Virus record (IMG/VR): IMGVR_UViG_3300038701_002672
Span: 1-38,995 of that record
DNA length: 38,995 nucleotides
From: a virus
Direction: 5' to 3' (one strand)
Made by a program: the position numbers and the translations under genes. Position 1 is the first letter of the stretch; every line of letters begins with the position of its first letter. Shown here piece after piece: positions 3,306 through 36,243 of the stretch. Below the pieces are notes generated by a model that worked only from the letters and a program-made list of their open reading frames with translations, was not told where the DNA came from and ran no database searches.

Positions 3306-3581
3306 CTAAGCCGCAATATCTCCATCGACTAAATCCTTAGGACTTACTCCGAACAACTCCGCCATGCGGAATAGTAAGCCCGCGCTGACTCTGGAGAGGT
3401 CTTTTTTGCCATTCTCAATTAAACTGTAATAACTTCGACTGATACCAAGACGATTAGCAGCGTCCCCTCTTTTGAAACCTGCTCTCTCTCTCAATGCAGA
3501 AACATTATTAGGATACTCAATAACTCTGTTCTTCTTGCACTCGGTACATATGTGTTCAACTTGCTGCGTATTAACTTTCAT
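3306..3581 (-). CDS. XRE-family (Cro/CI-like) repressor, 91 aa
   Basis: The start is placed at the ATG at 3581, with GAGGGA four to five bases upstream; the longer frame from 3611 would run through the promoter. Residues 33-88 contain a helix-turn-helix of the Cro/C1 type (LRERAGFKRGDAANRLGISR, then SYYSLIENGKKDLSR). An N-terminal CTEC pair precedes it, perhaps a metal or redox site, or half of a zinc knuckle. Transcribed alone and divergent from a second XRE gene, it fits one arm of a bistable lysis-lysogeny switch. Which protein acts as CI and which as Cro cannot be decided from sequence. Confidence 0.8.
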   Translation of the reverse strand: MKVNTQQVEHICTECKKNRVIEYPNNVSALRERAGFKRGDAANRLGISRSYYSLIENGKKDLSRVSAGLLFRMAELFGVSPKDLVDGDIAA

Positions 3582-3593
3582 GATTCCCTCTTT

Positions 3594-3630
3594 GTATGTA
3601 CAATAAAACATACACCATAGATGATGTCAA
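3594..3630 (-). promoter_or_regulatory. Promoter of the minus-strand XRE gene with overlapping inverted repeat
   Basis: A perfect TTGACA lies on the minus strand at 3630-3625, with TTTATT 17 bases on (3607-3602). The inverted repeat GTATGT-8-ACATAC (3594-3599 with 3608-3613) overlaps the -10 and start site, as expected for an operator. Confidence 0.6.
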
Positions 3631-3658: not shown

Positions 3659-3678
3659 CTATTAACTATAGTTAATAG
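3659..3678. promoter_or_regulatory. 20-bp perfect palindromic operator upstream of the plus-strand XRE gene
   Basis: CTATTAACTATAGTTAATAG is a perfect 20-bp palindrome that ends eight bases before the start codon at 3686. It contains TATAGT, a good -10 for the plus strand. The position implies autoregulation of the 127-aa XRE protein, or repression by its divergent partner. Confidence 0.65.
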
Positions 3679-3685
3679 GTAAGAA

Positions 3686-4069
3686 GTGATTGTGAATAAA
3701 AAGGAAATAGGGGAAAGAGTAAAACAGCTTCGCACCATGAAGGGCGTAAGCATTGAAAATTTAGCAAAGAAAGCTAAATTAAGTTACCAGTACACCTGGA
3801 GAATAGAAAACTCTTCGATTAAAAATGTTGGGCTAGACACATACATGGCCTTATCTAACGCCCTTGGAGTCCCACTATCTTATTTACTCTTCGGAGAAGT
3901 CTATACTTCAAATACGGAAAAGAAGGCTCTAGAGAATGCCATCATGCCAGGCAACGAGCTGCTACCATTAACTCCGATTGAAAAAAAAATGCTTGAAGGT
4001 TTTCGAAATATCGAGAAGAAAGAACAAAAAGCGTTCCTTAATATGATTGAAACCATTGCAAGGAAATAA
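3686..4069 (+). CDS. XRE-family repressor, 127 aa (lysogeny repressor candidate)
   Basis: The GTG at 3686 is used; a second GTG at 3692 is equally possible, since the ribosome site (AGGTAAG) is weak. Residues 8-66 form a helix-turn-helix domain (IGERVKQLRTMKGVSIENLA, then KKAKLSYQYTWRIEN and ALGVPLSYLL). A C-terminal helical segment (TPIEKKMLEGFRNIEKKEQK) is likely the oligomerisation part. There is no LexA/CI-type Ser-Lys peptidase domain, so induction by RecA-stimulated self-cleavage is unlikely. It heads the plus-strand operon running to the two-TM gene at 5325. This is the best candidate for the maintenance repressor, but that assignment is inferred. Confidence 0.75.
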   Translation: MIVNKKEIGERVKQLRTMKGVSIENLAKKAKLSYQYTWRIENSSIKNVGLDTYMALSNALGVPLSYLLFGEVYTSNTEKKALENAIMPGNELLPLTPIEKKMLEGFRNIEKKEQKAFLNMIETIARK

Positions 4070-4176: not shown

Positions 4177-4866
4177 ATGTGGCTAATTAACTCATTACTG
4201 ATTGTATTATTAGGCCTTAGTGTTTTCCCATTGCCTTACCAAAAAATAGGGTGGAGAGGTGGCTATTCTGATACTCAGCTATCTTCCGATACATACATTG
4301 TTTCAGTTCAGGGATCGGTATGGGCCAGTAATGAAAAGCTAATTGACTTTGCTTTGCTCCGTGCATTTGAATTGTGTCACATCAATGAAGCAGCATATCT
4401 ATATCTAGTTTCTGACTATCAATTCAGTGATTTTCCCAGACGTTCTGTCAGCTCTATCATAAAGTGTTCAGATACTGATTCTTTTAACAATGCAGTTGAT
4501 ATTGAAGCTGTTGCAGAAACTCTTAATAAGAAATACAAATTAAATATAGACTGGATTCGAAGACTCAAGTTCCAAAGAGAAAAACTTAGCACTAATAGCC
4601 AGCAGATGACTGCAGAAGATAAAGAGGCATTAAATTGGGCACGTCAGAATCCGAACGAACCTGATGCTGTTAAGATTTTAGATCTTCTTAAAAAAGAATA
4701 TGGGACTTCTAGGATTCAAAATTCAATGCCTGGGGTAGAGCAAAGTGAAGATCTAAAACAACTAAGTGACGAAGAACTTTTAAAAAGATTAGGGTTTTCT
4801 GATAAGGAGATAAAGGAAACTCTTTCAAACAAAACCCCTTCAAGCACCCCTCCCAATGACAAATGA
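4177..4866 (+). CDS. CC0125/CC1285-like envelope protein with a virion-type C-terminal motif, 229 aa
   Basis: The ATG at 4177 is preferred over 4114 because GGAGGG lies seven bases upstream and the product then begins with a clean signal or anchor helix (MWLINSLLIVLLGLSVFPLP). The next segment, GGYSDTQLSSDTYIVSVQGS followed by FALLRAFELC, matches my memory of the CC0125/CC1285 lipoprotein family, but the lipobox Cys is missing. In the C-terminal third, AEDKEALNWARQNPNEPDAV resembles the last 33 residues of the phage ejection protein at 9833-11206. The tail is Lys/Ser/Pro-rich. Its expression with the repressor suggests a prophage-expressed envelope protein, possibly for superinfection exclusion. 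That function is inferred only. Confidence 0.65.
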   Translation: MWLINSLLIVLLGLSVFPLPYQKIGWRGGYSDTQLSSDTYIVSVQGSVWASNEKLIDFALLRAFELCHINEAAYLYLVSDYQFSDFPRRSVSSIIKCSDTDSFNNAVDIEAVAETLNKKYKLNIDWIRRLKFQREKLSTNSQQMTAEDKEALNWARQNPNEPDAVKILDLLKKEYGTSRIQNSMPGVEQSEDLKQLSDEELLKRLGFSDKEIKETLSNKTPSSTPPNDK

Positions 4867-4993
4867 TCAAAAAGAAAAAGTCCGAAAGTGGTTAGAAGCA
4901 AAATGTACTCAGCTAAAATGTGAGTATTGTGGCCACCAATCATGGACCATGGTCAATAGGTTTTTAATGATGCCTACTCTTAGTGAAAAATGA
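4856..4993 (+). CDS. Possible small zinc-knuckle protein, 45 aa, perhaps truncated
   Basis: A frame from the ATG at 4856 overlaps the previous stop and reads 45 codons, including CEYCGHQSW, a typical half zinc ribbon. No Shine-Dalgarno is visible, so translation would depend on coupling. After the TGA at 4991, a neighbouring frame remains open and protein-like (NDILTDFIEQKRYAYYMHDK) up to about 5078. A frameshift may therefore have split a longer gene. Confidence 0.4.
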   Translation: MTNDQKEKVRKWLEAKCTQLKCEYCGHQSWTMVNRFLMMPTLSEK

Positions 4994-5909: not shown

Positions 5910-6983
5910 CTAATCAGATTTCTGTTTATAATCAGGCATGCGATGCACCGCATCGATTAAAGTCTGCGGTAACGAGTGCGCATAGCGCTCTGTCATCTTA
6001 CTATTACTATGCCCCAGCAAGGTCTGCACAGCGCGTAGATCCGCGGTATTCTTCAAGACATACGTCGCAAAGGTATGCCTAAAACTATAAGGACTAATTT
6101 TTTCTTTGATACCAGCACGTTTTAGCGCTCGGCTAAGCCCGTTTTTCATTTCTTTCTGATGACCTTCTATTTTCCCAGGAAACAAGTAATCATCGTTAGC
6201 CTTGTCTTTAATATGCTCTGCTAGATTTAGTTTTAGATTCTCATTTACAGGGACTGTCCTAAAACGCTTAGTTTTAGACTTTTTAATAACAAAGTGATTA
6301 TCTACAATGTCTTCTACTTTTAGCCGCAGAGCCTCGCTTGGGCGCATGCCGGTGTAGTATAGAATCATGAAGTAAAGCTTGATATGTCCAGTCATCGCGT
6401 CAATTGTACGACTTAATAAATCAGGGTCAACATATTTCGGCGGTAGCTCCTCAACTTTTGGTCTTTTGAAGTTTTCAAAAGGATTAATTGAAATATACTT
6501 TTTTTCGATAGCGTAGTCATACATTTTCTTTAAAAAGGCAGATAGCAGTCTAATCGTGTTCGGCTTATAGTTCTTTAGATAACAGTATTTTAAAACTATA
6601 TTTGAATCGATCATATTAATCATAAAATCACCGACTTGCTTGTATTTCTTTGCAACACCAACAAACATAAACCCTACCGCTTCATGAGAAGAGTCTAGCT
6701 TAAGAAAAGAATTAATTAGCAGACGATTTATTTTTATTGTGCTTTCCGCGTGATAGCCGAGCAACGAGTCTAGATAGTCTACAGTCAGCTCAAAAAGTGA
6801 AATTTCTGACGGCGGCAACTCTATATCAAGACGTAAATAAGTCTTATCTTGCTCATAACGACTCAGTACTTTTCTTGCTTCTGACTTAGTGATCTTGCCT
6901 AGACGAATCCATTTTTGCTTACCTTTAATATAATCAATCAGGTAATAAACACCGTCTTTTTTCTGCCTTGTAATACTAGCCAT
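5910..6983 (-). CDS. int: Tyrosine integrase, 357 aa
   Basis: Site-specific recombinase that integrates and excises the phage at tRNA-Thr. The N-terminal 60 residues resemble an arm-binding domain, residues about 63-175 the core-binding SAM-like domain, and 185-345 the catalytic domain. Visible active-site elements are Arg214 (TGMRPSEAL), Arg302 in YSFRHTFAT with His303, His325 in LLGHS and the nucleophile Tyr334 (TERYAH). The first His of the usual HxLRH box is Tyr299, a tolerated variant. The start at 6983 has no clear ribosome site, and two integrase-arm-like repeats lie directly in front of it, suggesting self-repression. The gene is transcribed away from attP. Confidence 0.95.
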   Translation of the reverse strand: MASITRQKKDGVYYLIDYIKGKQKWIRLGKITKSEARKVLSRYEQDKTYLRLDIELPPSEISLFELTVDYLDSLLGYHAESTIKINRLLINSFLKLDSSHEAVGFMFVGVAKKYKQVGDFMINMIDSNIVLKYCYLKNYKPNTIRLLSAFLKKMYDYAIEKKYISINPFENFKRPKVEELPPKYVDPDLLSRTIDAMTGHIKLYFMILYYTGMRPSEALRLKVEDIVDNHFVIKKSKTKRFRTVPVNENLKLNLAEHIKDKANDDYLFPGKIEGHQKEMKNGLSRALKRAGIKEKISPYSFRHTFATYVLKNTADLRAVQTLLGHSNSKMTERYAHSLPQTLIDAVHRMPDYKQKSD

Positions 6984-8174: not shown

Positions 8175-9833
8175 TTACTGTGTTAGCTGATTATTATTTG
8201 CCCCATATCCCAGCAAGTCTAAAAGCTGCTTAATTGGACTAGCTTCTACATCATCAGCCATGGGGGCTAACAACGGCGCAGACTGTGCTGCTTTAGATAT
8301 AGCGTTTGCAGTTCCCCCTCCAGCTTTGCCAGCTAGCTTCAAGAGCTGCGCGATGCTACTTTTAGCTAGTGGGCTTTCAAGCATCGGTCTGCCAAGGAAA
8401 CCTATTAATGCACCTAGGCCACCACTTGATGCTCCAGCAGTAGCTGACACTGCATCGAAGGGATTGACCAAGTTTTTTGTTTCACTTCTTGACAGTAGTT
8501 TATCCGTACTTTTCCCAAGTCTGCCGTAGACTCCTAGCTCTTTGTTAACTCCTCTCACCTCTGGAGCGGCTTCTTCTATAGCTCTACGCAGGCCTTTTGC
8601 TTTTGCTCTGTCAATCCCTGTTGAGGCTCCATTGTCCATGATCCCCTGCATGAACGGCCTTTCACCAATGTCTTTATAAAGAAATCTTTTGATTTGATTA
8701 GCTTCTTTTGCCGAAATAGCATCTTTGCTTTTTAAAAGATCATCAATTACATCATCAACTCTAGAAACAATATTACTAGACCCCTCGGGGTTTAGAGACG
8801 AATTAGAAAATGGCTGTTTAATTTTCTGAAAGTTTTTCAGTTCTTCAATAATAGTTTCTTTATCAATAGCACTGTCAGCATTTGCTAAAAAGCCTTCTAG
8901 CTTATTCTCGTTTTCTTCTAAGCCTCGCCTAGCTAAGTTATTAAATCCTTTTAACGTCCTCGGCCTTGTCGTTCGTTCTAAAATATCTCGTCCTAGATTT
9001 TTGCCAGCTGCTAATTCTTTTGGGCTTGGCTTTAGCGCTTTATTTAAAACAGTCGCGCCTTTATCCATGAAATAATCATCTGCTTTATTGCCTAATTTGT
9101 TGGCAACCGGGGCAGCCACAGAACTTGCTAAATCGAATGTCCCACCGACAGCAAAATCTTTTAACGGATTAATATCAGTGTCTTCACCTAACAATGCTCT
9201 GCTAGTATCCTCTAGCCCTTCAACAGCTACGTTAGTTAGTCCACCTCGCAGAATCGGGCTTAGGACCTTCCCCAAGGCTGGCGTTGCAGCTGCCCCTAGT
9301 CCTGGCGCCCCTGCCTCAACTAATCCAGCAATATTAGTCGCTGGACCAATTGTTTTTATAGCTTTTGCTGTGACACCGAAGGGGTTGACATATCCCCCGA
9401 CTTTTCCAAGCGCCGAAGCAATCGGAGAGTTCTGTTGTGACTTTTCTGCTTCGTCACGATTAATTTCTGACATTGCATGGTAGATTTCAGAAATCGGCGT
9501 TTCCCAATCAAAGGGCTTGGCTGCAAGCGTGCTTAATCCGACAGTCAGCGGCTCGGTTAATCCTGCGGTGGAACCACTCGCAAAGCCTCTGGCTGCTGCT
9601 AGTGCGTCATCTTTCAGGCCATAAAGCCGCTCCCACTCTCCACGCTCTTGGCCATTATCACCGCCAGCCCAGTCATTAGACGCGGGGTCAACCATGCCAC
9701 GCTGGCCTAATGCTGCTAGTTGTTCGGGGCTTGCTTGATTGCCACGATTAGCTAGATAAGCATCGGGATTAAACTGGCTTGGCGCTACTCTCTGAGCTTT
9801 ATTAGCTAAATAAGCGTCTGGGTTAAAAGCCAT
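8175..9833 (-). CDS. Ejection (internal virion / DNA transfer) protein, 552 aa
   Basis: The ATG at 9833 overlaps the upstream stop (TAATG). The N-terminus carries two copies of FNPDAYLAN (about residues 3-11 and 21-29), a motif I know from podovirus internal virion proteins. The rest is Ala/Gly/Leu-rich with long helices and hydrophobic patches (ALGKVGGYVNPFG; AGASSGGLGALIGFLGRPM), as expected of proteins ejected into the envelope. Position and composition match the P22 gp7/gp20/gp16 cluster. The exact counterpart is not assignable. Confidence 0.7.
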   Translation of the reverse strand: MAFNPDAYLANKAQRVAPSQFNPDAYLANRGNQASPEQLAALGQRGMVDPASNDWAGGDNGQERGEWERLYGLKDDALAAARGFASGSTAGLTEPLTVGLSTLAAKPFDWETPISEIYHAMSEINRDEAEKSQQNSPIASALGKVGGYVNPFGVTAKAIKTIGPATNIAGLVEAGAPGLGAAATPALGKVLSPILRGGLTNVAVEGLEDTSRALLGEDTDINPLKDFAVGGTFDLASSVAAPVANKLGNKADDYFMDKGATVLNKALKPSPKELAAGKNLGRDILERTTRPRTLKGFNNLARRGLEENENKLEGFLANADSAIDKETIIEELKNFQKIKQPFSNSSLNPEGSSNIVSRVDDVIDDLLKSKDAISAKEANQIKRFLYKDIGERPFMQGIMDNGASTGIDRAKAKGLRRAIEEAAPEVRGVNKELGVYGRLGKSTDKLLSRSETKNLVNPFDAVSATAGASSGGLGALIGFLGRPMLESPLAKSSIAQLLKLAGKAGGGTANAISKAAQSAPLLAPMADDVEASPIKQLLDLLGYGANNNQLTQ

Positions 9834-11206
9834 TATTGAGCCCCCAGCGATTGCATAATCTGCGCTGCTCTAGGATCATTCGGGTTTTGCTTGGCCCATG
9901 CTATGGCTTCTTGATCTTCAGCGCTCATCTGCTGATTTTGCCCGCCCGACATTGCTTTTTGAATCGCGGAAGCTTCTGTTTGATTCATGTACTCGCTGAC
10001 ATCATAGCCAGACTTGTTGAATGAATTAATATACTCATTCTGTTTATCCCGTGTTAAGCGCCTTAGGTTATTAAGTTTAGCCATCCTAACCTCAGGCGTG
10101 TCTGTCATCGTTGGAAGTATTCTGTCGTATTTTTCTTCATCTTCTTTGCGCAATACCCCACCCTCCAAAAACTTAGCGACAAACTGCTTAGCTGCGTTAA
10201 CTTCAGACTGTACATTTTGCGTCTCTGTATCATAAGGATTTAACGATGAAATTCTTCCAGCGATGGGGCCACCAATGTTCTGATTAGACTGTAGTGTTGT
10301 CTCTAGCTTGTCTAGAACCGCCGGGATATTGTTCCCGTCTGCTAAGAGCACAGCTTGTGTTGCAGGAAGTCTTTGGCCTCTTTCATCTCTTGCCTTGTCT
10401 CGGCTATATTTTTCCTGATCCATTAAAAACTTTTGTTGCGCCATGTCTGCACGCATCATTTCCAGCGGATTTAAAGACGCTTTTTCTTTTAAGAAATTAG
10501 TAAAATTAGGGTCTTGCTGTGCGTACTTATATTCTTTGACATTATTAGTCATCAGATCCCCCCCTTTCTGCAGCTTCATGAACTCGGCAATGGCGGACTT
10601 TTGTCTGTTAGCATAATCATCAGCGATCTTATTGCCCTGTCCCATGTAGACTTTTTGCAGTTCTCGGCCGTTGTTGGGGTTAAGCGATCCGACGACACCT
10701 GCTAAGCCGTTCATGATTGCAGAGAACATGTGCGCGTTTTTTTGTTTTTTTAATGAATCATGATCTAAGCCAAACTGGAACTTCATCGCCTCAGGATCAT
10801 TGCCCACAGGGTCTTGGCCGTAGGGCTGTGCGCCTTGACTCCCCAGATTATTCGCGCCCATGCCTAGGTTAGGGGTTTGTGGGGGCTGCATGGCTAGTTC
10901 TTTTGGGCTACCGAATGGCTCGACGTGCAGATGATCTTTTTCAAGGATCGGCTGGAAGCCTTGTTCTTGATAATAAGACTTCATCTGGTCAATTTCTTCG
11001 GGGCTCTTACCCATCGTTCGCAGATCAATGGCATTGCCGCTGGTATGGAAGCTATTGGGCACGCCTCCCACCGCTGCATTCTCATCGGGGCTGCGCATGG
11101 CACTGGTAATCATTTGTTCAAAGGGCGCATTTCCTGCCGCTTGGCGAAGAGCTTCCGCGATTGAGCTAAAGCCTTGTTTGATCTTATCATCTTTAAAATT
11201 AAGCAT
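9833..11206 (-). CDS. Ejection protein with N-terminal M15 peptidase domain, 457 aa
   Basis: The ATG at 11206 is preferred over the TTG at 11221; GAGAGA lies six bases upstream, and it overlaps the previous stop (ATGCTTAA). Residues about 10-97 form an M15 peptidase: SFHTSGNAIDL gives His54 and Asp61, and DHLHVEP gives His92 and His94. The remainder is Gln/Asn-rich and helical. The protein ends with AEDQEAIAWAKQNPNDPRAA, a motif also found in the immunity-region protein at 4177-4866. The likely role is local peptidoglycan digestion during genome ejection, as a structural component. A free lysis enzyme is less likely because a dedicated endolysin is present. Confidence 0.75.
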   Translation of the reverse strand: MLNFKDDKIKQGFSSIAEALRQAAGNAPFEQMITSAMRSPDENAAVGGVPNSFHTSGNAIDLRTMGKSPEEIDQMKSYYQEQGFQPILEKDHLHVEPFGSPKELAMQPPQTPNLGMGANNLGSQGAQPYGQDPVGNDPEAMKFQFGLDHDSLKKQKNAHMFSAIMNGLAGVVGSLNPNNGRELQKVYMGQGNKIADDYANRQKSAIAEFMKLQKGGDLMTNNVKEYKYAQQDPNFTNFLKEKASLNPLEMMRADMAQQKFLMDQEKYSRDKARDERGQRLPATQAVLLADGNNIPAVLDKLETTLQSNQNIGGPIAGRISSLNPYDTETQNVQSEVNAAKQFVAKFLEGGVLRKEDEEKYDRILPTMTDTPEVRMAKLNNLRRLTRDKQNEYINSFNKSGYDVSEYMNQTEASAIQKAMSGGQNQQMSAEDQEAIAWAKQNPNDPRAAQIMQSLGAQ

Positions 11207-12302
11207 AAAAATCTCTCTCAATCGTCGATCCTAGTCTCGATCCATTGACGTAATAATAGCCTTTGTCAGTTAAGATATCGTAGGTATTAGGCGAGTCATG
11301 TTCGACTGCTGTTGCAGTTTCTAGCTTTTCAAAGAACGGATGCCCGAAACTCATGATGACTTGTTTGCCGTTTTCAAAAACATGCTTATAGAACTTATGT
11401 CCAGGTGCACGCCTTCTGCTATGTGTTGCAATAACTCGACCGCCACGGACAATGTCCCCGACAATAATGGTCTCAACCGGCTTGCTACCGCCATCTTCTA
11501 GCTCAATCTCTGTGCCTCTGGGCAGACATGCAGCGCTCGCAATAGACGCCCCCATACCGAATAACGAACTAAACGGGTCACCTTTTCCTGACTGCCCGCT
11601 GGACATCATCGGTGCCCCGAGGTTAGTTTTGTAGAGATTATCAATCATCTGATAGGGTCGCATACCCGCCTGATCGATCTGGCTATGCAGCGTGCCCATG
11701 GTGCCGATTTGGTTTTGCTGGATCTGGTTGAATGCTTGATTAGCGGCGAGACTTTGCTGAGTGCGGCCCATATTCTCCCCTGCCTGCATGCCTTGGCGCT
11801 GCAAGTCCATCTGCCCCTGCATTTTATCAACATCTAGTTGGTCTTTAGCTTGCTGCAGGCCATATTGCGATCTGACCCCAGCCATATTCTGCGCAGCGTT
11901 TCTAGCTGCAGTGGTCTGTGCACCGTAGTTAAGCCCGCTCTTCCCAAAGCCTCTGGATGCAAAACTCTTGTTAAGCTGTGACATCCCTTGAGACATGTCT
12001 TGCTTCATACCGTCTAGCGTACTGTTAAGCGCATTGCCGTAAGCGGACTTTGGCGCATAACTAAGATTAGGCGTGTTAAATTTAAAATTACTACCCGCGT
12101 TATACTGAGGGATGTTCTGCCCGCTAAGCAACTTGCCAGCGGTGACATGCTTCTGCATATTAGAGTAGTCTTGCATCATCCCATAGTTGGGAGTTGCGCC
12201 TTGGGCAGTTTTATAGAGTTGGTCCTCTAGTCTGCCCGTGTTTTGTGGTTTATAGAGAGCCTGAGGGCCTCCGCCGCCTTTGCTGCCACCCATTGACATC
12301 AT
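11199..12302 (-). CDS. Virion protein with C-terminal Hint (intein-like) domain, 367 aa
   Basis: Residues 1-258 are Gly/Gln/Met/Ala-rich and helical, like a podovirus ejection protein (repeats such as MQGQMDLQRQGMQAGENMG). Residues 259-367 match a Hint domain: the nucleophile Cys259 in ACLPRGTEIELEDGG, the VETIIVGDIV block, ATH at 292-294, GHPFF at 320-324 and a terminal YYVNG with Asn353. In inteins and Hedgehog proteins this fold catalyses an N-S acyl shift and cleavage at the Cys. There is no substantial C-extein, so splicing is unlikely and C-terminal self-cleavage or ligation is the expected chemistry. The gene ends by overlapping the M15 ejection protein. The domain call is good; activity is inferred. 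Confidence 0.75.
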   Translation of the reverse strand: MMSMGGSKGGGGPQALYKPQNTGRLEDQLYKTAQGATPNYGMMQDYSNMQKHVTAGKLLSGQNIPQYNAGSNFKFNTPNLSYAPKSAYGNALNSTLDGMKQDMSQGMSQLNKSFASRGFGKSGLNYGAQTTAARNAAQNMAGVRSQYGLQQAKDQLDVDKMQGQMDLQRQGMQAGENMGRTQQSLAANQAFNQIQQNQIGTMGTLHSQIDQAGMRPYQMIDNLYKTNLGAPMMSSGQSGKGDPFSSLFGMGASIASAACLPRGTEIELEDGGSKPVETIIVGDIVRGGRVIATHSRRRAPGHKFYKHVFENGKQVIMSFGHPFFEKLETATAVEHDSPNTYDILTDKGYYYVNGSRLGSTIERDFYA

Positions 12303-13613: not shown

Positions 13614-14270
13614 CTAATTAGCTGGAGTTAATAAATAGTACTTCTTGTCAATCTCAACCGCCCAGCCTTGCTCGTTAGCGCCGGCGATTTTAACACTGTG
13701 TGTGAAGTCTTCTTCCACGGGAGCGTAAAGCGAAGGATCTTCTTGATAATGTTCTTCACAATCATTTGTATCAACTTCATTAGCCATGCAGAGCCTATAA
13801 AAATTCCAACTTTTAATTATTTTTAGATAAACATCAAAGCCAGTATCAACAAGTTCATAACCGAGATAGATATCAAAGACATCGTTCACCCCACCATCGA
13901 CCGCATAATAAGCCGTTTCACCATCAGGCGCTAAAGTAAAAAAAGAATCGAACTCTTGCTTTACTTCATCATGATCAAATTCTTTCGCTTCAAAAGCAAA
14001 AAACGGCGTCACTAGATCATCGAACTTGCCATCAGCGTTCATTGTGATCTGGTAGTCATCTTCTGCAGTCTCAGAGTCCAATGAGATTACGCTAACATCC
14101 CATTCTTTCGCAAAGTAAGCGTTGTCGAGTTCGATAGTCACGCCTTCATCAATAAGCTGCTCTAACAACTTTTGAGGCGCAACATAGCGATCAGAACCGT
14201 CATTAACATCGGCTTCATTACAAGCCGCAAGACCAAAAACAATCAATAAACTAGCTAAAACTTTTTTCAT
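13614..14270 (-). CDS. Acidic lipoprotein, 218 aa (moron)
   Basis: The signal peptide MKKVLASLLIVFGLAAC has a lipobox with Cys17 as the acylated residue, followed by Asn-Glu. Position +2 is not Asp, so outer-membrane sorting is expected. The mature part is strongly acidic with mixed alpha/beta character and no recognised domain; Cys residues at about 156 and 164 could form a disulfide. It has its own good ribosome site (GGGAG) and its own upstream region with a palindrome. It could be a lysogenic-conversion or receptor-blocking lipoprotein by analogy with known phage morons. The function is not shown by sequence. Confidence 0.75.
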   Translation of the reverse strand: MKKVLASLLIVFGLAACNEADVNDGSDRYVAPQKLLEQLIDEGVTIELDNAYFAKEWDVSVISLDSETAEDDYQITMNADGKFDDLVTPFFAFEAKEFDHDEVKQEFDSFFTLAPDGETAYYAVDGGVNDVFDIYLGYELVDTGFDVYLKIIKSWNFYRLCMANEVDTNDCEEHYQEDPSLYAPVEEDFTHSVKIAGANEQGWAVEIDKKYYLLTPAN

Positions 14271-15001: not shown

Positions 15002-15301
15002 TCAATTTTTCAAGCTAATCTGCTTAATTTTTTTTAATGCCCCAGCCAACTTATCTTTCTGAGTCTCTAGATCAAAATGCACTTGCAGATTCATCCAAAA
15101 CTCTGGCGTCACTCTAAAATAGCGCGCTAGTTTCAAAGCTGTGTCTGCAGTAATCCCGCGCTTCTTGAGCACAGTCTCATTAATTCTACGCGCTGAGACA
15201 TTAATGCTTTTAGCAAGTGCTAATTGACTCATCCCCAAGGGCTCTAAGAACTCTTTTTTTAAAATCTCGCCGGGGTGGATTGGAGCTGTTTGTTCCATCA
15301 T
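15002..15301 (-). CDS. higA: HigA-type antitoxin without adjacent HigB, 99 aa
   Basis: The family signature IHPGEILKKEFLEPLGMSQL opens the protein. An XRE helix-turn-helix follows (ALAKSINVSARRINETVLKK), then the conserved RYFRVTPEFWMNLQ and DLETQKDKL segments. HigA neutralises the RelE-like mRNA interferase HigB and represses its own operon. No HigB-like gene is found on either side: upstream is a tail-fibre-associated gene and downstream, convergent, the DUF4160/DUF2442 pair. It may be an orphan that protects against a host or competitor HigB, or it may serve as a plain regulator. Confidence 0.88.
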   Translation of the reverse strand: MMEQTAPIHPGEILKKEFLEPLGMSQLALAKSINVSARRINETVLKKRGITADTALKLARYFRVTPEFWMNLQVHFDLETQKDKLAGALKKIKQISLKN

Positions 15302-35802: not shown

Positions 35803-36231
35803 CTAAGGCCAGCCCCAACCAGGGCCTTCCCCATCTCCTGATCCATCTCCTTTGCCATTTCCTGTGCCATCGCTATAGCCCCAGCCTGATCCATATCCTG
35901 CGCCTGAGCCTATGCCAGTGCCTGAACCTGAGCCATCTACATCTACATCTACATCTACATATCCACAGCCAGTGCCGTCTCCATATCCAGAGCCGGATCC
36001 TGAACCTTTGCCTGCTCCTGAGCCTTTGCCTGAGCCATTGCCTAAGCTATTGCCTGAGCCATTGCCCCAGTCTGAGCCTAAGCCAGAGCCATCTCCAGAG
36101 CCATCGCCAAAGCCAGTACCATCGCCATCTCCTGAGCCATCGCCATCGCCATCGCCATCGCCATATCCTGATCCTGAGCCTTTGCCAAAGCCAGAGCTCC
36201 AGCCATATTTATTTTTATCATACATATCCAT
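35803..36231 (-). CDS. Gly-Asp/Ser alternating repeat protein, 142 aa
   Basis: The start is the ATG at 36231 ([11 protein letters not shown]); a GTG at 36237 is an alternative. After a short normal N-terminus the protein becomes an almost continuous (Gly-X) run with X mostly Ser or Asp, such as [17 protein letters not shown] and [13 protein letters not shown], plus a VDVDVDVDG block, ending GPGWGWP. The DNA is a degenerate 6-base repeat, so all frames look open. The run could be a calcium-binding or phase-separating low-complexity chain, or a fibre-like element. No enzymatic motif. The N-terminal and Trp-rich ends argue for a real gene. Confidence 0.6.
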
Positions 36232-36243
36232 GATCACTCTTAC

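Follow-up and report, generated by a model that had tools for sequence, protein, structure and literature searches.

A hairpin tag of a putative ejection protein recurs in a lysogeny-module protein of an environmental phage and may serve superinfection exclusion

Phage P22 prophages express SieA, an inner-membrane protein that blocks DNA entry via the ejection proteins gp16 and gp20, and gp20 truncated by its final 33 residues is nonfunctional, according to the excerpted text of the report on this system (mBio 2024, PMC10883804). The lysogeny module of phage TP-J34 encodes Ltp, a membrane-tethered lipoprotein described in the excerpt of its report as acting on the tape measure protein (Front Microbiol 2014, PMC3952083). 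In phage T7, the gp16-N tape stabilizes the C-terminal region of gp15 in the channel, as stated in the excerpted account (PMC8954989).

The locus described here comes from an IMG/VR virus record, the full 38,995 bases of which were analyzed and are called the window below. A protein encoded beside the repressor gene of this phage contains a copy of the C-terminal tag of a protein with an M15-peptidase domain, and the gene that follows the M15 gene opens with short repeats that accompany this tag across viral contigs.

The hairpin tag and the repeats of the next gene

The tag and the repeats are encoded in the window by two adjacent genes.

9833-11206, minus strand: M15-peptidase virion/ejection protein of 457 aa, tagged (PF08291, E = 5.7e-11)
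9836-9934, minus strand: C-terminal hairpin tag of the M15 protein, its last 33 residues (alignment, profile, and AlphaFold2 tag model)
8175-9833, minus strand: putative ejection protein of 552 aa, encoded directly after the M15 gene (TAATG overlap)
9807-9827, minus strand: first FNPDAYL repeat of the 552-aa protein
9753-9773, minus strand: second FNPDAYL repeat of the 552-aa protein

The 552-aa protein starts with MAFNPDAYLANK...FNPDAYLANR, and the M15 protein has both features by which tagged proteins were defined, namely, a C-terminal tag and a next gene opening with FDPDxYL-type repeats. The M15 protein and some other tagged proteins have up to ~140 C-terminal residues in common, with ~30% identity, and the 552-aa protein is linked by blastp to the protein encoded downstream of the tagged gene of locus L132. 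Few proteins of the tagged loci carry PHROGs labels; from the gene order and the M15 domain, we infer that proteins of the M15 and 552-aa types are ejection proteins.

The 367-aa protein encoded directly before the M15 gene (11199-12302, minus strand) contains the C-terminal stretch ACLPRGTEIELEDGG...VGDIV...GHPFF, and its end is what we take to be a Hint/intein-type domain; it had no Pfam match and only a weak intein-related NCBIfam match. Elsewhere in the window, positions 15002-15301 (minus strand) presumably encode a HigA-like HTH protein amid late genes, and a putative lipoprotein, whose lipobox-like sequence reads LAAC, is presumably encoded on the late strand at positions 13614-14270 (minus strand), beside an SSB-like gene. 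Positions 35803-36237 hold a highly repetitive Gly/Ser/Asp-rich ORF, with a Pro-rich frame equally open on the opposite strand.

A first scan found the tag in 12 viral contigs and in one phage of Silvanigrella aquatica (CP017838), and all 13 stretches end 0 to 7 residues before the stop codon, in proteins of 333 to 849 aa. A position-neutral DNA pattern, A..WA..NPNDP, retrieved at least 119 stretches with at least 120 tags from the viral_contigs collection. Among the matches listed, the Trp residue lies 20 to 21 residues from the end in 101 of 117 ORFs with closed ends, and truly internal tags occur at L063, L071, and L131. These searches place the tag at the C-terminus of virion-type proteins of viral contigs. 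A redundancy cut left 60 tags. Modeled on its own with AlphaFold2 from 56 rows, the tag consists of two helices (pLDDT 87.8), which predicts a helical hairpin. Solved structures yielded only short or doubtful matches to it. The tagged proteins are not mutually unrelated, as 109 of 113 are connected by single linkage of blastp matches, a permissive grouping in which low-complexity links are possible.

Whole-record searches gave a single tag match in 13 of 14 records and then in 48 of 50, the latter set being 50 of the at least 119 loci and having some records in common with the former. The records with a second match are the window, G038 with two identical inverted tags, and G056 with a weak match in a frame of equal length. 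In G038, the two identical tagged genes (L086) are inverted and separated by ~1.6 kb; this palindrome may be an artifact of assembly. An integrase was found in 7 of the 42 tagged records searched, including the window, and no second tag was found in the 6 other integrase-bearing tagged records.

When one tag was used as the query against 50,697 isolate phage records, only CP017838 was retrieved, together with weak matches that included an annotated DNA polymerase, and a typed tag consensus retrieved CP017838 and two Methylophilales phages from the isolate records. The pair of tag and repeat is abundant in uncultivated viral contigs and nearly absent from those 50,697 records. No plasmid record matched one tag, and of the 18 stretches that a narrow pattern (AxxWA[KR]QNPN) found in the genome_contigs collection, none was confirmed as a tag. 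A generic repeat of host proteins, the contrary outcome named in the sequence-only reading of this DNA, was unseen in both of these searches.

At the start of the gene right after a tagged gene, F[DN]PDxYL occurs one to four times. Among the matches listed, a strict expression detected the repeat in 93 of 104 downstream neighbors and in 0 of 95 upstream neighbors, and a cleaner count found it after 112 of 114 testable tags, with exactly two copies in 101 cases (6 of 120 tags were dropped, having too little DNA after the tag). Many of the tag loci are near-copies, with 101 distinct starts. The two exceptions, L071 and L131, start with FDPDAFF and FDPDAYF repeats, so that a post hoc loosening of the last position gives 114 of 114. 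Other ORFs in the tag loci contain the repeat in 6 of 904 cases, and by eye all 6 seem to follow tags overlooked by the first definition. In the reverse test, based on a start codon plus the repeat pattern, the preceding ORF was tagged in 80 of 83 new testable loci; of the remaining three, L177 and L222 have a visibly diverged tag, and L181 has none. In Methylophilales phage MEP402 (Zobellviridae), both elements are diverged, the doublet after the tag reading FNVKEFL and FDVKAFL.

Since two short elements meet at one gene junction and are conserved while the protein bodies vary, the tag and the repeats are most simply read as a docking pair of ejection proteins. Another explanation is that each of them binds a third part of the virion (portal, scaffold, or core) and that the lysogeny-module protein binds that part as well. 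Co-occurrence and adjacency are no proof of contact, and the cores of T7 and PhiM1 also rest on the portal, as far as the excerpted descriptions go. However, the elements face each other at one junction, at 112 of 114 and 80 of 83 loci, as partners would, and we consider binding through a third part quite unlikely.

The lysogeny-module protein and its tag copy

The features of the lysogeny module are as follows.

3306-3611, minus strand: Cro-like HTH gene, divergent (PF13560, E = 3.5e-11)
3661-3676, plus strand: perfect palindrome ATTAACTATAGTTAAT, candidate operator, between the divergent HTH genes
3686-4069, plus strand: CI-like HTH repressor (PF01381, E = 4.6e-7)
4177-4866, plus strand: lysogeny-module protein of 229 aa, or 250 aa from the alternative start ATG 4114 (open frame; GGAGG before ATG 4177)
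4177-4239, plus strand: hydrophobic N-terminal segment, putative signal peptide or signal anchor, lacking a lipobox Cys (hydropathy, model helix)
4222-4419, plus strand: CC0125-like domain, residues 37 to 102 of 250 (NCBIfam NF047637, E = 3e-8)
4600-4692, plus strand: hairpin tag copy, residues 163 to 193 of 250 (alignment, profile; model helices 167 to 178 and 183 to 196)
4856-4993, plus strand: 45-aa ORF with CxxC, overlapping the stop codon of the 4177-4866 gene (weak phrog_4293 match)
5910-6983, minus strand: tyrosine integrase (phrog_1, E = 5.7e-61; PF00589, E = 3.5e-35)

Judged by its integrase gene, the phage is temperate. The earlier placement of the 4177-4866 protein in the immunity region holds, as its gene lies directly 3' of the CI-like repressor gene on the same strand, 44 nt from the end of the latter to ATG 4114 and 107 nt to ATG 4177, and no terminator-like site was found between the two genes. 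The next ORF, the 45-aa CxxC ORF, is without the FDPDxYL repeat and is possibly an operon partner of the gene.

The Shine-Dalgarno sequence is better at ATG 4177 (GGAGG, judged by eye) than at ATG 4114, and a start at ATG 4114 would make the N-terminal part mostly acidic. In the 250-aa numbering, the hydrophobic stretch covers approximately residues 22 to 40, with a KD19 hydrophobicity maximum of 2.14 at residue 22, and a helix at residues 20 to 35 is predicted in a low-confidence model. This single-sequence model is weak (pLDDT 62) and comprises an N-terminal helix, a strand-helix-strand body, the tag helices, and short helices beyond; fold searches with it retrieved no match at E ≤ 0.001 from PDB or BFVD. 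The body had been described from sequence as a CC0125-type lipoprotein that lost its lipobox Cys. The resemblance is real (E = 3e-8 over residues 37 to 102, with the CC0125 family also recovered for the gene in a DNA search), and an N-terminal Cys is lacking, the only Cys residues being 88 and 118 of 250, but the match to NF047637 reaches 34.3 bits, below the curated cut-off of 40. The protein further differs from the CC0125/CC1285 family, whose lipobox is taken from the family name, in its additional hairpin and C-terminal helices. No homolog of the whole protein was found in the viral_contigs, genome_contigs, and phages collections, the last of which gave one motif-only match (E = 3), and no relatives of the window's phage were found in viral_contigs by its portal or terminase.

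Residues 163 to 193 correspond to the final 33 residues of the M15 protein: QQMTAEDKEALNWARQNPNEPDAVKI in the lysogeny-module protein pairs with QQMSAEDQEAIAWAKQNPNDPRAAQI at the very end of the latter, with 18 of 31 residues identical. The Smith-Waterman score of this pair is 104, compared with a maximum of 61 in 1000 shuffles. Profile A3, built from 56 virion tags with the lysogeny-module protein left out, detected that protein at an E value of 2.7e-12 and the M15 protein at 5.8e-19, and no third tag was found in the window at E ≤ 10, leaving two copies only. These values bear out the match that the sequence-only reading had seen at approximately residues 163 to 190. The DNA similarity that it had also pointed out amounts to 57 of 93 bases, with identities of 21/31, 24/31, and 12/31 at codon positions 1, 2, and 3, respectively, which indicates a conserved protein and no recent copy. 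Thus, the tag copy is old, or the resemblance has been maintained at the protein level. A recent duplication of the end of the M15 gene was considered and is ruled out by the third codon positions. The hairpin is followed by 57 residues in the 4177-4866 protein, so here the tag is not at or near the C-terminus.

The copy reads NPNEPDA and the virion tags read NPNDPRA, with two core positions changed. When D was replaced by E in the DNA pattern, viral_contigs, possibly scanned without the window's own record, gave 0 matches, versus at least 119 for D, which suggests that a constrained residue is changed in the copy and that binding may be lost. At the core positions of the tag, the copy retains 10 of 12 residues, versus 8 of 19 at the other positions (one-sided Fisher P = 0.027, with core positions picked by the authors from conserved tag columns). 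Among 127 virion tags, the best match of the copy is the window's own M15 tag; in reverse, the copy ranks 48 of 127 for the M15 tag, the best matches of which are tags of other phages. The hairpin might instead be a generic helical module for another envelope function, such as dimerization, without any exclusion, reflecting old homology without a functional link or convergence. The changed core (NPNEPDA) and the low third-position identity (12/31) speak for such a module, and a GH6 cellulase in PDB contains a tag-like stretch (E = 0.0038), which indicates that such hairpins can arise elsewhere. In contrast, the E value of 2.7e-12 against a profile without this protein, the best match to the tag of its own phage, and the retention of the core all argue for a relationship with the virion tag, and we regard a generic module as unlikely.

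From ATG 4177, the N-terminus has no basic residues, and K and R follow the hydrophobic segment, an arrangement in which the positive-inside rule disfavors an outside C-terminus. The hairpin may accordingly face and act in the cytoplasm, where it would sequester newly made 552-aa protein, either that of a superinfecting phage, with interference in assembly, or that leaked from the prophage, with detoxification of a membrane-active ejection protein. The binding logic would be unchanged. However, the body resembles the CC0125 lipoprotein family, exported by name, and Cys residues 88 and 118 would presumably suit an oxidizing compartment; such an action in the cytoplasm appears quite unlikely to us.

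Proposed exclusion and comparison with known systems

The presence of a tag copy on a predicted membrane-anchored protein beside the repressor is best explained by a decoy for superinfection exclusion in the manner of SieA or Ltp. We put the chances at about even that the 4177-4866 protein is a membrane-anchored, probably periplasm-facing superinfection-exclusion protein that acts as a docking decoy. In such a mechanism, the hairpin of the first ejection protein would dock on the repeats of the second during assembly of the trans-envelope channel. When a 552-aa protein arrives, the membrane-held hairpin of the lysogen would bind its FNPDAYL repeats or compete with the M15 tag in some other way, and the channel would fail to form, so that the DNA of a related phage would stay out. 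In favor of the decoy are the significance of the tag match, the retained core, the co-occurrence of tag and repeats, the position behind the repressor gene, the hydrophobic N-terminus, and the precedents of SieA, Ltp, and T7; against it are the two changed core positions, the low reciprocal rank of the copy, the N-terminus devoid of basic residues, the failure to find homologs of the whole protein, and the single tag in each of the 6 other integrase-bearing records. The pairing of tag and repeat provides the decoy idea with a concrete target, which was absent from the sequence-only reading.

A wider proposal, in which our confidence falls somewhat short of even, is that environmental phages use a two-part docking code, consisting of the ~33-residue C-terminal hairpin and the paired FDPDxYL repeats, that leaves variable bodies free to swap, and that one half of this code on a membrane-held lysogeny protein lets lysogens exclude relatives by docking mimicry. 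To our knowledge, atomic detail of how ejection proteins recognize each other is limited to a few podophages. Two short, strongly conserved elements that meet at a single junction in a large, little-cultured phage group would offer a simple handle on ejectosome assembly. If the decoy works, it shows how a virion part, once copied, can give rise to an exclusion protein, and which phages are excluded becomes predictable.

No paper on the FDPDxYL repeat or the tag was found in a full-text search of the open-access literature, and none was found there on ejection or internal virion proteins together with C-terminal or conserved motifs. Among the matches listed for decoys or mimicry in superinfection exclusion in the open-access literature, none describes this arrangement, judged by title and the start of the abstract.

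The proposed docking resembles that of T7 gp15 and gp16 in that the N-terminal part of one ejection protein would hold the C-terminal region of the one before it, but the excerpted T7 account describes a long tape, whereas a 33-residue hairpin and a 7-residue repeat occur here; the likeness drawn here concerns the arrangement. Like SieA, the 4177-4866 protein would be a prophage membrane protein aimed at ejection proteins, a likeness that is functional and not derived from sequence, and the excerpted text of PMC10883804 reports no ejection-protein mimicry for SieA. The likeness to Ltp consists of a lysogeny-module gene, a membrane tether that is here predicted, and an active domain directed, here by proposal, at an injected tail protein. 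In contrast, Ltp belongs to a Gram-positive host, is a true lipoprotein, and targets the tape measure protein, and the excerpt of its report does not describe it as a copy of a virion tag. The sequence-only reading had presented its exclusion mechanism as one it had not seen described; SieA and Ltp already act at a similar place, and, set against the excerpted reports on these two proteins, the new part of the proposed mechanism is the mimicry of a docking element.
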